A stretch of DNA of 20,725 nucleotides from a virus. The stretch lies in IMG/VR virus record IMGVR_UViG_3300042691_016183, positions 1 to 20,725 of that record; one strand, given 5' to 3'. Within the stretch, counting starts at the first letter, position 1, and every line of letters begins with the position of its first letter. The notes below the pieces were generated by a model, which saw only the letters and a list, made by a program, of their open reading frames with translations, did not search any database and had not been told where the DNA came from. Shown here in pieces: positions 2,721 to 20,725 of the stretch. A program made the translations under genes and the position numbers.

Positions 2721-2901
2721 CGGGGGTATCCGTAAAATCCCCATATGCTTCTTCACATAATGGGCAATAACTATTAGCACTTCTGGTCTTATCAAGGCTA
2801 ATCAGCAATAATCCTTTATCTTGCATTTCTAGGATTTCTGGATCTATTCTGCCATAGACTATAGGTATTAATTTAGTCTTACATCTTATACAGTTAATCA
2901 T
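2689..2901 (-). CDS. Small zinc-ribbon protein
   Basis: 70 residues from the ATG at 2901, which is preferred over the in-frame ATG at 2937 because TATAAT ends 7 nt before it and the longer start would lie upstream of this promoter. MINCIRCKTKLIP supplies CxxC near residues 4-7 and SYCPLC another CxxC near residue 50, the classic two-knuckle zinc ribbon. No catalytic domain is visible; a regulatory or nucleic-acid-binding role is plausible. It is the only minus-strand gene in the left half and its promoter is back to back with the one at 2931. Confidence 0.6.
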   Translation of the reverse strand: MINCIRCKTKLIPIVYGRIDPEILEMQDKGLLLISLDKTRSANSYCPLCEEAYGDFTDTPVISDDYQIHD

Positions 2902-2908
2902 TAGGTTT

Positions 2909-2914
2909 ATTATA
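2909..2914 (-). promoter_or_regulatory. -10 element of the divergent zinc-ribbon gene
   Basis: TATAAT on the minus strand, 7 nt before ATG 2901. Upstream on the minus strand is GGGGCGGGTA (plus-strand TACCCGCCCC at 2918-2927), the same box that follows the -35 of the plus-strand promoters, here inside the spacer. The -35 is weak and overlaps the complement of the TTGACA at 2931-2936, so the two promoters are physically interlocked. Confidence 0.5.
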
Positions 2915-2930
2915 CTATACCCGCCCCTAT

Positions 2931-2959
2931 TTGACATACCCCCCTGCCTTTGCTATACT
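2931..2959 (+). promoter_or_regulatory. Strong sigma70-type promoter of the multi-hairpin RNA
   Basis: TTGACA 2931-2936, a 17-bp spacer starting TACCCCCC, and TATACT 2954-2959. The expected start at 2966-2967 coincides with the first base of stem 1 of the RNA candidate, and no start codon follows for 140 nt in the plus direction. TTGACATACCC recurs exactly at 3193 and 3516. Confidence 0.75.
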
Positions 2960-2965
2960 TATATA

Positions 2966-3109
2966 TAGAAGGCATACAACTGATGGCTCGCTGTGTGGTT
3001 GGTAGCCTTCTCTCCGCTCCCTTTCTGGCGGAGTAAGTCGTCCCTCCCTTTCTGGGGATGCGCTCCTGGGCATGAGCACTAAACTGCCCACTTTCTGTAT
3101 AATATATCT
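2966..3109 (+). ncRNA. Candidate structured RNA: four hairpins, two with identical loops
   Basis: Hairpin 1: AGAAGGC 2967-2973 with GCCTTCT 3005-3011, continued inward by TACAAC/GTTgGTA with single bulges, about 13 bp in all. Hairpin 2: CTCCGC 3012-3017 with GCGGAG 3028-3033. Hairpin 3: CGTCCC 3039-3044 with GGGATG 3055-3060 (one G-U pair). Hairpin 4: GCTC 3062-3065 with GAGC 3074-3077. Hairpins 2 and 3 have different stems but exactly the same 10-nt loop, TCCCTTTCTG (3018-3027 and 3045-3054), which suggests selection on the loop. The promoter at 2931-2959 would start the RNA at the foot of hairpin 1. The 3' end is not defined; the RNA may run into the tiny gene at 3110. No terminator is visible. 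Confidence 0.65.
3098..3103 (+). promoter_or_regulatory. -10 element with leaderless spacing
   Basis: TATAAT followed by six bases (ATATCT) and ATG 3110. There is no good -35 at 17 bp (AGCACT). The bases before the -10 (GCCCACTTTCTG) resemble the spacer of the 3193 promoter (GCCCATTTGTGA). They also resemble the loop sequence repeated in the RNA upstream. Confidence 0.55.
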
Positions 3110-3196
3110 ATGAGACAGATTACTGAGGAAATATTCCCCATAGTCAGAGATATTGATGATCATATAGATGATTTTGAAGAATATGATCTTGTTTGA
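3110..3196 (+). CDS. Very short acidic leaderless ORF (28 aa)
   Basis: 28 residues beginning MRQITEEIFPIVRDIDDHI, strongly acidic. No Shine-Dalgarno sequence, but TATAAT ends 6 nt before the ATG, the same geometry as its neighbours. Its TGA (3194-3196) lies inside the TTGACA of the next promoter. No function can be inferred. The recurring layout of promoter, tiny gene and promoter supports it as real, but its length keeps confidence moderate. Confidence 0.5.
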   Translation: MRQITEEIFPIVRDIDDHIDDFEEYDLV

Positions 3197-3221
3197 CATA
3201 CCCGCCCATTTGTGAGATACT
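3193..3221 (+). promoter_or_regulatory. Promoter with leaderless spacing
   Basis: TTGACA 3193-3198, a 17-bp spacer starting TACCCGCC, GATACT 3216-3221, then six bases (GGGGAT) to ATG 3228. The expected transcription start is the A of the ATG. The stop of the previous gene is embedded in the -35. Confidence 0.8.
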
Positions 3222-4671: not shown

Positions 4672-5319
4672 ATGCCAGAATTAAATGCCAATATCCCGCC
4701 GATTGAATGTTATGTACGGGGTAATTTTTTGCGTGATCAAAAAGATAGCCATGATGTTTATCTACCCTGCGTAATTTTTGGCGTTGCTAGTGTACAAAAT
4801 CGCAGCCCGTTATTTCACTTTATGATGGAGGATGGTGGCATTTGGTGGCGTATGCCTATCAATGCTTTCTGCGCCGAACCTGGTGTGCCTGAAGTTGATA
4901 TACACAATTTAGTTTTGTGGAATTCTTTTAGCCCATACATAACTGTAACTAAGTTTGCTAACCTTGCTAATATTCGTATGACCTATATTGATAGAACTAA
5001 AACCAAGGTCAGTGGTAAGTATTTGTTTACTCTTGACTGGCATAACCCTGATACAAACCGAATTGATGATGGCTATTCAGAAAATCCTGGACAGCATAAG
5101 TGTGGTCATGTTATTCAGCGTGATGATGGTAACTTTGCTATTCAACCTAACAACCGTATCTTTGCATTAGAGCCTTCCTTTACTACTAAGCCTGGTAAAC
5201 CTGTTATTCATCGCTTGATCAATACCCGCAAATGGGACGTAGAGGATGCTGATAAATGGATTACAGAAGATTCTGATGCATATCATTATGACATTACGAA
5301 CAGAGATGAAAATGCGTGA
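4672..5319 (+). CDS. Conserved-looking hypothetical protein (215 aa), leaderless
   Basis: 215 residues, hydrophilic, without signal peptide or membrane segment. Recognisable stretches are GGIWWRMPINAFC, FTLDWHNPD and NNRIFALEPSFT, followed by LINTRKWDVEDADKW. I remember similar proteins in large environmental phages annotated as hypothetical, so a phage-specific family is likely; its function is unknown. The ATG at 4672 is only 6 nt after TATAAT and has no Shine-Dalgarno sequence, so its mRNA should be leaderless. The 3' end overlaps the start of the next gene by 8 bp. Confidence 0.7.
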   Translation: MPELNANIPPIECYVRGNFLRDQKDSHDVYLPCVIFGVASVQNRSPLFHFMMEDGGIWWRMPINAFCAEPGVPEVDIHNLVLWNSFSPYITVTKFANLANIRMTYIDRTKTKVSGKYLFTLDWHNPDTNRIDDGYSENPGQHKCGHVIQRDDGNFAIQPNNRIFALEPSFTTKPGKPVIHRLINTRKWDVEDADKWITEDSDAYHYDITNRDENA

Positions 5320-15316: not shown

Positions 15317-15546
15317 TATCTTAATGGTTCCCTAGTTACTAACACGATTGCCCCCTCCATCTCTAAGGCTTTCTTAACCATAGAGACATACTTTACTGCT
15401 TCTAGTTTCTCATCATGAGTCATACGGACAAATGATCTTTCATCTAATTTTATCGTAAGAAAGGTTTCGTTGTCAATAAGACTTACTCCAAAGTTTTTAG
15501 GAGCGGGTATAGAATGAAATGCCATACGCATTTTATCTGTATACAT
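15316..15546 (-). CDS. Hypothetical protein coupled to WhiB
   Basis: 76 residues from ATG 15546, which shares one base with the WhiB stop (TAATG); longer in-frame starts lie inside whiB and are less likely. The protein reads MYTDKMRMAFHSIPAPKNFG at the start, then VSLIDNETFLTIKLDERSFVR and AVKYVSMVKKALEMEGAIVL. This gives a beta-beta-alpha-beta look, with no recognised motif. Coupling to WhiB suggests co-expression but not a specific role. Confidence 0.65.
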   Translation of the reverse strand: MYTDKMRMAFHSIPAPKNFGVSLIDNETFLTIKLDERSFVRMTHDEKLEAVKYVSMVKKALEMEGAIVLVTREPLR

Positions 15547-15830
15547 TATTGCTCCATTGTTAATGCTTGCCAAGTATAAGACCAATCCTTTTTAGTCTTA
15601 TGACTGTTGAATTCTTTAGAGACTTCTCCACCTTCTAAGTAGATACCGCCCCAAACACCCCATTCTTTTCCAGATACGCCTACAGCAAAACAGGTCTTTG
15701 CTACTGGGCATGTCCTACAAAGAGAGTCTACAAATTCTCTTGTATCAGGTTGTTCCTCATATGTATCAAAGAATACATTTGTATCTGATCCTAGACATAG
15801 AGCATCATCTTTCCAAAGATGCTGTTTCAT
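15546..15830 (-). CDS. WhiB-family Fe-S transcriptional regulator
   Basis: 94 residues. Four conserved cysteines, C12, C38, C41 and C47 (CRTCPVAKTC), follow the C-Xn-C-X2-C-X5-C rule for a [4Fe-4S] cluster; GVWGG at 58-62 is the family turn. A short basic C-terminus with lysines (HKTKK) follows and could contact DNA. WhiB proteins are restricted to actinobacteria and their phages and act with the primary sigma factor; some phage versions interfere with host WhiB2 or repress host genes. AGGGG precedes the ATG. This is the best host marker in the window. Confidence 0.93.
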   Translation of the reverse strand: MKQHLWKDDALCLGSDTNVFFDTYEEQPDTREFVDSLCRTCPVAKTCFAVGVSGKEWGVWGGIYLEGGEVSKEFNSHKTKKDWSYTWQALTMEQ

Positions 15831-18544: not shown

Positions 18545-18876
18545 TCTTGGCTTTTAAGCAGCCTCTTTATTTCCTCAATACTCCATCTATCCTCTTTAGA
18601 GAGTTTAGCCAATTCAGACTCATCCAAGGCTTTTGGAGTCAAGATAACAATAGGGTTATCGTCCATAAAATTAATATTTAAAAACCCTTTTTCCCATAAC
18701 CCCATTAGTTCTTTATTTACATGATTAACATGTTCATCATAAAGTGCTGGAGATATTTCTTTTAGTTTAGGGGTAAATTGATAAAGGAATTCTCCTGTTT
18801 GTGAGTCTACCCCCGCAACCTGAAGACCGCCAGAAAGGATGAGTTGATTTATAATTTCTTGATCCATATCAGCCAT
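18538..18876 (-). CDS. Small conserved phage protein
   Basis: 112 residues. SGGLQVAGVDSQTGEFLYQF, then ALYDEHVNHVNKELMGLWEK, and GFLNINFMDDNPIVILTPKA look like a winged-helix module; the pattern (VAGVD..TGE.LY.FTPKL...P.LY) is common in actinophage structural operons (recalled), often near the prohead region. No enzymatic motif. It overlaps the thioredoxin gene by 8 bp. Confidence 0.7.
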   Translation of the reverse strand: MADMDQEIINQLILSGGLQVAGVDSQTGEFLYQFTPKLKEISPALYDEHVNHVNKELMGLWEKGFLNINFMDDNPIVILTPKALDESELAKLSKEDRWSIEEIKRLLKSQEL

Positions 18877-19123
18877 TTATAAACTTCTCCAATTCTTCTT
18901 TAGTCTTTCCACCAATAATTCTATTTTTTTCTTTTTCATTTTCAAACAAAATAAATGTTGGCACCGATTGAATGCCAAATGTTTTAACCAAATCTGGATT
19001 ATCATCTACATCAATGATTTGAAATCCAGCAGTTGATTGCTCTCTATTTAATTCTTCTACTATTGGCCGTGTTTTTTTGCATGGCTGGCACCAATCAGCC
19101 GTAAAGTAATAGATTGTCTTCAT
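18869..19123 (-). CDS. Thioredoxin-like protein
   Basis: 84 residues from ATG 19123, chosen because it forms an ATGA overlap with the upstream stop. TADWCQPCKKTRPIVEEL has the redox site W11-C12-Q-P-C15; the cis-proline P55 is in FGIQSVPTFILF; GGKTKEELEKFI is the last helix. It is shorter than the usual 105 residues because the first beta-alpha unit is missing, as in many phage thioredoxins. It reduces disulphides in the cytoplasm and may support phage ribonucleotide reduction, though no reductase gene is seen here. The Q-P in the active site differs from the usual G-P. Confidence 0.88.
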   Translation of the reverse strand: MKTIYYFTADWCQPCKKTRPIVEELNREQSTAGFQIIDVDDNPDLVKTFGIQSVPTFILFENEKEKNRIIGGKTKEELEKFING

Positions 19124-19503
19124 ACGAGTTTTAGGCTTATAGTAGACTTTGCGAGTTCTTCTGCTGTCCATAGTCCAACCTTAGAATCTCCTCCATATGG
19201 TTTTGCCAAATTTGCTTTAATCAATTGATCATTAATACTAACAGTAGAGTCTTTTAGAAATGCTGTTCCTAAATACCTGCCATACTTATCTGGCTTAGAA
19301 ACCTGAAGTCTAATTATTTTTCCTTCTATGTTTTCTACAAGGAATTGTTTTAGTGCTTTTCCAAGTGGCGTATTTTTTTCTGCTGTATCAATTCCTGCCA
19401 AACGAATACGCTCTTTGTGCCAAACGCTGAATCCAAGATCAATAAAAACGTCGACGGTATCACCATCAACAACTTTGTCAATTTTTGTATAATATTCATA
19501 CAT
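19120..19503 (-). CDS. Staphylococcal nuclease-like (thermonuclease) protein
   Basis: 127 residues. VVDGDTVDVFIDLGF, then RIRLAGIDTAEKN (R34, D39, T40, E42) and KYGRYLG (R76) supply the catalytic residues of the SNase fold; GDT gives the calcium-binding D15. It is a calcium-dependent nuclease that could degrade host nucleic acid. It has no signal peptide, so it is intracellular unless released by lysis. The ends overlap both neighbouring genes (TAATG and ATGA). Confidence 0.88.
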   Translation of the reverse strand: MYEYYTKIDKVVDGDTVDVFIDLGFSVWHKERIRLAGIDTAEKNTPLGKALKQFLVENIEGKIIRLQVSKPDKYGRYLGTAFLKDSTVSINDQLIKANLAKPYGGDSKVGLWTAEELAKSTISLKLV

Positions 19504-20366: not shown

Positions 20367-20725
20367 TTACTTCTTAGCAACCTTGATAGCGATTTCCTTT
20401 GGCTTTTTCTCCTCTGGAACAATGCGATCAATATCAATATGAAGCATTCCATCTTTCATCTCTGCACCAGTTACTTCCATATATTCTCCAAGTGCAAAAG
20501 TGCGGGTAAACTTGCGTGTTGCAATACCTTTATGAATTGCTTCTCCTTCAGTTTCTGTAGTGATTTCTCCCTTTACTATAAGAGTTCCTTCTTCAACAGT
20601 TACTTTAACATCATCTTTTGTGAAGCCAGCAACTGCTACAGATAACTTATAGGTGTCTTCATCTACCTTAATTAGATCATAAGGTGGATAAGATTGACGT
20701 GTTGCAGTATTGTGTACATGATTAA
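20367..20725 (-). CDS. Hsp20/IbpA-class small heat shock protein, 5' end cut by window
   Basis: 118 complete codons are visible; the N-terminus is beyond the window. The start of the visible part contains ATRQSYPPYDLIKVDEDTYK, then SVAVAGFTKDDVKVTVEEG, TLIVKGEITTETEGEAIHKG, and IATRKFTRTFALGEYMEVTG with the end DGMLHIDIDRIVPEEKKPKE. This is the alpha-crystallin domain of the IbpA class (AGF..D...V....L.V.G and GIA.R.F.R.F.L) and lacks only the C-terminal I-x-I/V variation (here IAIKV). It holds unfolding proteins; phage Hsp20 genes are known from cyanophages and environmental phages, presumably aiding virion assembly. The stop is at 20367. Confidence 0.92.
   Translation of the reverse strand, partial: NHVHNTATRQSYPPYDLIKVDEDTYKLSVAVAGFTKDDVKVTVEEGTLIVKGEITTETEGEAIHKGIATRKFTRTFALGEYMEVTGAEMKDGMLHIDIDRIVPEEKKPKEIAIKVAKK

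Follow-up and report, generated by a model that had tools for sequence, protein, structure and literature searches.

Layout of the locus

The window, i.e. the whole stretch of 20,725 nucleotides analysed here, carries on its plus strand a putative small RNA of about 130 nt (2966-3098), the 5' start of which is derived from a promoter and the 3' end of which is inferred to lie after a pseudoknot, without transcript data. The promoter is of the sigma-70 type (2931-2959, +) and near-consensus (11 of 12 matches), with TTGACA (2931), a 17-nt spacer, TATACT (2959) and a TG before the -10 element, and its predicted start falls near 2966. Downstream follow, all on the plus strand, a 5' stem-loop (AGAAGGC...GCCTTCT, 2967-3011), hairpin A (3012-3033, six conserved pairs, loop UCCCUUUCUG at 3018-3027), hairpin B (3039-3060, loop UCCCUUUCUG at 3045-3054), an H-type pseudoknot (3062-3089) and a third, single-stranded copy of the loop motif, CUUUCUG (CTTTCTG in DNA, 3091-3097). 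The pseudoknot reads GCUC CU GGGCA U GAGC ACUAAAC UGCCC, with S1 formed by GCUC (3062-3065) and GAGC (3074-3077), S2 by GGGCA (3068-3072) and UGCCC (3085-3089), and ACUAAAC as the third loop.

The first-pass annotation had pointed to two hairpins with unrelated stems and an identical 10-nt loop (TCCCTTTCTG), to a strong promoter upstream and to the absence of plus-strand coding sequence. The hairpins are present as described, the promoter is the one given above, and the plus strand has no open reading frame of 50 aa or more across 2966-3109; the pseudoknot (not a plain hairpin), the unpaired CTTTCTG and a TATAAT at 3098-3103 were not part of that description. Exact copies of the 10-mer TCCCTTTCTG occur in the window only in the two loops, with a one-mismatch match at 434 on the minus strand. 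An antisense frame of 90 aa (2927-3199) was taken as spurious, as the stems change freely and 1-nt indels occur among relatives.

The TATAAT (3098-3103, +), likely the -10 element of a leaderless promoter, stands 6 nt before the ATG of a 28-aa open reading frame without Shine-Dalgarno (SD) sequence (3110-3196, +). Because it lies directly before this ATG, the gene at 3110 looks leaderless and served by its own promoter, as far as the sequence allows such a reading. Several genes of the window, at 2529, 3110, 3228, 4672, 18525(-), 19952(-) and 20242(-), look leaderless, with a -10-like TATAAT, TATACT or GATACT some 6-7 nt ahead of the ATG.

In the predicted fold of the window RNA the loop core is largely unpaired, and the third copy is unpaired with a probability of at least 0.92. 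The fold of the single sequence by itself stands out only mildly (z = -1.9; 6 of 200 shuffles fold equally well), and on account of these modest statistics relatives were sought.

Relatives and covariation

When IMG/VR was scanned for two copies of the loop, 32 stretches were obtained, over half of which share the layout, and further scans added more, bringing the distinct two-hairpin relatives to about 18 (16 aligned and two found later, L299 and L300). The aligned members are 16 distinct sequences that are not near-identical, and their stems occur as CUACCC/GGGUAG, CAUCGC/GCGAUG, CGCCCC/GGGGCG, CGCAGC/GCUGCG, CGCCUC/GAGGCG and others, the partner always changing too. Pairing is retained in 96.4% of the cells overall and in 100% in hairpins A and B, and double changes are seen at 11 pairs (35 cells), including 4 of 6 pairs in hairpin A and 5 of 6 in hairpin B. 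The covariation score is 0.356 against 0.115 +/- 0.018 in shuffles, none of 500 reaching the observed value, and sliding the partners by one to three columns lowers pairing to 40-51%. Judged by these comparisons, the structured RNA at 2966-3098 is real, the proof being covariation and not single-sequence folding. A covariance model matches the small RNA of the window with 108 bits.

Around the hairpins the members vary. The structure of the 5' stem-loop is kept, with a variable sequence and inner part, and it is short in L007 and L008; a -10 element (TATAAT or TATACT) precedes it in other members too. The third copy is the full CCCUUUCUG in L001, L006, L009, L014 and L016. U-runs stand right after the pseudoknot in L020 (seven U, directly) and L008; the sequence suggests that transcription may terminate at this point, for which there are no transcript data.

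The loop core CCUUUCUG, an 8-mer, is 100% conserved and the stem columns 85% on average. Since the first scans required the loop, its constancy could be circular: most members were retrieved with loop-based patterns, which favour constant loops, and only loop-blind searches escape this bias. Three such routes were followed. Relatives of the neighbouring protein encoded at 843-1199 led to L264, with loops ACCCUUUCUG and UACCUUUCUG; a pattern of stem B plus pseudoknot gave 14 loci, two of them new (L299, L300); and a covariance-model search of 1.1 Mb yielded no full-length member whose loop core differed. Among loop-blind members the first loop positions vary freely (L264/L298, L299, L300) and the core is always CCUUUCUG. 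As the routes agree, what does not vary is the 8-mer CCUUUCUG. That the stems should change in a compensatory manner while the loops stay constant had been set beforehand as the test of a repeated ligand, for instance an antisense target, and this prediction was borne out by the full pairing of the hairpins and the invariant core.

Other versions of the element exist. L154, L170 and L173 have a single hairpin and a 3' copy, and L002/L023 (L002 5720-5830) present three CCCUUUCUG copies at a similar site on a different scaffold without pseudoknot, possibly an independent origin of the same device. The repeated unpaired motif is the feature common to the two-hairpin, single-hairpin and L002/L023 versions. 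The L002/L023 scaffold stands before a leaderless-looking gene.

Tandem repeats, such as those in L003, L012 and L032, fitted the search pattern but lacked the layout and were excluded. A search of INPHARED with the DNA of the whole window gave no match, and a scan of genome contigs for the two-loop pattern yielded 16 scattered matches in unrelated bacteria, which were not inspected singly and were treated as chance, leaving no host. RNA-less relatives might have hidden an RNA with different loops; the 10 kb downstream contained no pair of hairpins sharing a loop, 11 of 12 whole records lacked a tandem CCTTTCTG, and no full-length covariance match was obtained. About 1.1 kb after the homologue of gene 843 in L236-L267, relatives without the RNA share a conserved non-coding stretch that is rich in promoters and contains repeats of the motifs TTGACAAACC / GGTTTGACA and GGGCATAT.

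Complementarity to the Shine-Dalgarno sequence of a phage gene block

The core CCUUUCUG complements CAGAAAGG exactly. Every AGAAAGG was inspected in whole contigs from phages that carry the RNA, and most copies stand 6-10 nt before an ATG, with a spacing peak at 6-9 nt. Among the 7-mers found up to 25 nt ahead of a start codon, AGAAAGG ranks first in the 12 kb on the upstream side of the RNA (83 of 253 starts); in the 12 kb on the downstream side it precedes 0 of 145 starts, which mostly look leaderless or AGGAG-type. The gene table of one such contig (G010) has an AGAAAGG-SD block at about 14.3-26.3 kb, flanked by genes with AGGAG or with TATAAT about 6-8 nt before the ATG, the latter of which look leaderless by sequence. 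The block proteins GP88, DUF932, DUF1281 and DUF4241 have no assigned function.

The asymmetry is reproduced by duplex energies: the mean loop:leader duplex is -7.6 kcal/mol upstream versus -4.2 downstream and -3.6 for shuffled leaders, and the real loop is equalled by just one of 150 shuffled loops. At AGAAAGG sites the mean is -11.2 kcal/mol for the loop versus -9.9 for the 16S tail. The window contains only the end of the block, with two predicted targets on the plus strand, of which only the first favours the loop over the 16S tail. This site, CAGAAAGG at 165-172, lies 5 nt before the ATG of a gene for 89 aa without assigned function (178-447) and would form 8 bp with either loop (-10.9 kcal/mol versus -8.4 for the 16S tail). 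At the second, AGAAAGG at 510-516, 6 nt before the ATG of a DUF4241 gene (523-843), the loop is no better (-9.9 versus -10.2 kcal/mol).

RNA-less relatives use the same SD, and the share of C before it is alike (31/85 vs 42/104). The idea that this C evolved to match the loop G is unsupported in view of the equal share; it follows that the SD did not arise as an adaptation to the RNA, and that the RNA exploits an existing SD class. Trans-compensation, a changed loop together with a changed SD, was not seen among the members found.

Mimicry of 16S rRNA and the likely host

The 16S rRNA of small-genome Actinomycetes ends in CACCUCCUUUCUAAGGAG (ending also given as CACCUCCUUUCU), and the ending CCUCCUUUCU is that of, e.g., Bacillus subtilis 168 and Mycobacterium smegmatis mc2 155. 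The loop copies the last seven nucleotides of actinobacterial 16S rRNA, CCUUUCU, plus an added G, and AGAAAGG is the complement of the same seven. As the SD complements the 16S tail and the loop resembles it, their mutual complementarity is partly expected.

An actinobacterial host is inferred because the window encodes WhiB (Pfam PF02467) and the one cultured relative that was found for gene 843-1199 infects an actinomycete; the host identity is not proven. This relative, the nearest cultured one found for the protein, is Actinomycetia phage DSL-LC01 (44% identity over 67%), the first 50 kb of which contain no AGAAAGG, no pseudoknot and no loop. Auxiliary genes of the window are WhiB (15546-15830, -), thioredoxin (18869-19171, -), Hsp20 (20367-20723, -) and a PHROG 3704 protein (4672-5319, +), the last also found in cyanophages and Pelagibacter phages and sometimes annotated PurM or ferredoxin.

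Mimicry of the 16S 3' end, along with the largely leaderless or AGGAG-type genes after the RNA, would also fit a role in host shut-off, with the loops as decoy anti-SD sequences that occupy host mRNAs in general and leave leaderless phage mRNAs free. However, of 233 gene starts sampled in small-genome actinobacteria, the presumed hosts, only 2 carry AGAAAGG, and the phage block abounds in it; the targets are accordingly more likely to be genes of the phage than of the host. We regard shut-off of the host as unlikely.

Proposed mechanism

We propose, as the probable function, that the RNA, made by a family of freshwater phages, is a trans-acting antisense sRNA of the phage with two to three anti-SD copies and keeps the AGAAAGG-led block repressed. 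An antisense role is preferred since the loop core complements the SD of the neighbouring block exactly. Two hairpin loops, usually with a single-stranded 3' copy, would present CCUUUCUG as a mimic of the 16S 3' end (CCUUUCU), and each copy would pair over 7-10 nt with the (C)AGAAAGG SD of the phage's own genes, blocking ribosome binding. The sequence data show the conserved structure, the invariant core, the exact complementarity, the asymmetry between gene blocks and the accessibility of the loops in the predicted fold; transcription and pairing in vivo are inferred, in the absence of expression data. Downstream genes without AGAAAGG, mostly leaderless-looking or AGGAG-led, would escape. Firing of the strong promoter may then silence the block and so act as a translational switch, where repression rather than activation is likewise an inference, as is an early-to-late order, the early or late timing of the AGAAAGG block being a guess. 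The 3' pseudoknot would cap and probably stabilise the RNA, again an inferred role. More tentatively, and with slightly less than even confidence, these phages may have two translation classes, AGAAAGG-led and leaderless or AGGAG-led, the first of which is silenced in bulk by a ribosome-mimicking RNA to switch the lytic programme, this RNA being closed by a pseudoknot that belongs to a wider, undescribed phage element.

One loop on different stems is also the classical layout of a repeated protein site, and the loops could sequester an RNA-binding protein in the way that CsrA is titrated by RNAs of the CsrB/RsmZ type. This we consider improbable, as the core exactly complements the commonest start-proximal 7-mer of the same phages and the third copy lies in unpaired RNA, without its stem. 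Still harder to sustain is a cis-acting leader or attenuator of the gene or genes directly downstream: the RNA does end right in front of the following, co-oriented gene, but a separate TATAAT stands 6 nt ahead of that gene's ATG, what comes after the RNA varies from member to member, and in some (L020, L008) a U-run directly follows the pseudoknot. A DNA-level element without RNA, i.e. protein-binding repeats or an origin, as short repeats beside promoters might suggest, is strongly disfavoured by base-pair covariation in four helices including the pseudoknot, which is a signature of RNA.

Relation to known small RNAs

That no described RNA family has this layout, as initially supposed, holds for Rfam 15: nothing relevant was found for the whole window at gathering score or for 2900-3150 at E up to 5, and the window RNA had no covariance-model match to LhrC, 6C RNA or C4 antisense RNA. 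C4 RNA of phages P1/P7 is a phage antisense RNA acting near a ribosome-binding site by specific pairing in one operon, whereas the present RNA matches an SD class common to many genes. The hairpin loops of 6C RNAs carry runs of six C, a feature not met by the loop UCCCUUUCUG. UCCC-motif sRNAs are chromosomal and of other architecture, and we know of none that combines a pseudoknot with covarying stems bearing one and the same loop.

The 6C RNA of Actinobacteria is a small RNA with C-rich hairpin loops that is reported to regulate multiple genes, and it is comparable as a C-rich-loop sRNA from the phylum of the likely host (PMC9569102); the phage RNA differs in its loop motif CCCUUUCUG, which has no C run, in its pseudoknot and in its phage location. 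The UCCC-motif sRNAs of Staphylococcus and Bacillus (RsaE, RNAIII, SprD, FsrA) share a C-rich motif that binds SD sequences (cited in PMC4132741). Closest in mode of action is Listeria LhrC, in which three redundant CU-rich sites directed against the SD region were tested experimentally, the sites lying in loops or single-stranded RNA and blocking translation at a purine-rich SD region (PMC4132741). The two loops and 3' tail of the phage RNA, CU-rich and complementary to the SD class, meet this feature. Unlike LhrC, it has two identical-loop hairpins and a pseudoknot instead of a terminator loop, its motif is CCUUUCUG rather than CUCCC-UUUU, it is phage-encoded, and the genes that it is predicted to target form a block of the phage itself. 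By analogy, it would work like LhrC mechanistically, with repression itself inferred, yet it is a member of no known family. Anti-SD sRNAs are already known in bacteria, and no earlier description of phage ones was found in the open-licence literature; in the present case the RNA seems to be directed against all phage genes that share one class of ribosome-binding site. If true, phages could change their gene programme at translation instead of transcription.

The 3' pseudoknot as a separate phage element

A pattern of the 3' module alone, TCCTGRGCATGAN(4-8)AAANNGCYC, matches at least 120 IMG/VR stretches, and 182 distinct pseudoknot contexts were obtained among the matches listed and other loci collected. 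The third pair of S1 forms in 180 of the 182 as four Watson-Crick types (GC 59, AU 49, CG 42, UA 28; shuffled expectation 40%), and S2 has a compensatory pair, A-U in 162 and G-C in 20, so that the criterion for an H-type fold, two interleaved helices with compensatory changes in both, is met. Among the matches listed, 171 instances had enough flank, and in 143 a frame of at least 60 codons ends within 150 nt upstream (control 54/171), 78 of these frames ending 5-19 nt before the pseudoknot. In annotated phages (Labelle, Molivia, NMeng1, ParMal1, D6E, phiEF-1.1, Javan271, S-EIVl) it is intergenic; in most cases a stop codon lies no more than a few tens of nt upstream, and a tRNA, scaffold/capsid or other gene follows. 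Hosts of pseudoknot phages are actinobacterial, cyanobacterial, firmicute and alphaproteobacterial.

With Rfam 15, the window and other pseudoknot-bearing loci gave no match to a pseudoknot family, only tRNA reaching gathering score, and searches of the open-licence literature for the pseudoknot sequence and for exonuclease-resistant phage pseudoknots found no relevant earlier description. The pseudoknot is a phage element in its own right, widespread and apparently undescribed, and looks like a general element of phage mRNAs. As it usually sits soon after a stop codon, it possibly protects the 3' end or blocks exonucleases, a role that is untested.

The form CCUGRGCAUGA...AAACUGCYC is seen in L041, L058, L289-L296 and about 180 other contexts, at 3062-3089 in the window, and a BLAST match is also present in a 6-kb virus record (Sigmofec virus). 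At several loci (L041, L061, L097, L102, L116, L117, L063, L111) the pseudoknot stands directly before tRNA-like genes, as if marking the mRNA/tRNA boundary. Another conserved phage RNA (L045, L066, L094, L095, L109, L146) consists of a hairpin, GUCGGGGGAGACAGCGAC, whose purine-rich loop does not vary, and of this pseudoknot after it; the RNA lies downstream of a TATAAT, and several copies follow the apparent C-terminal end of an Hsp20-type gene.
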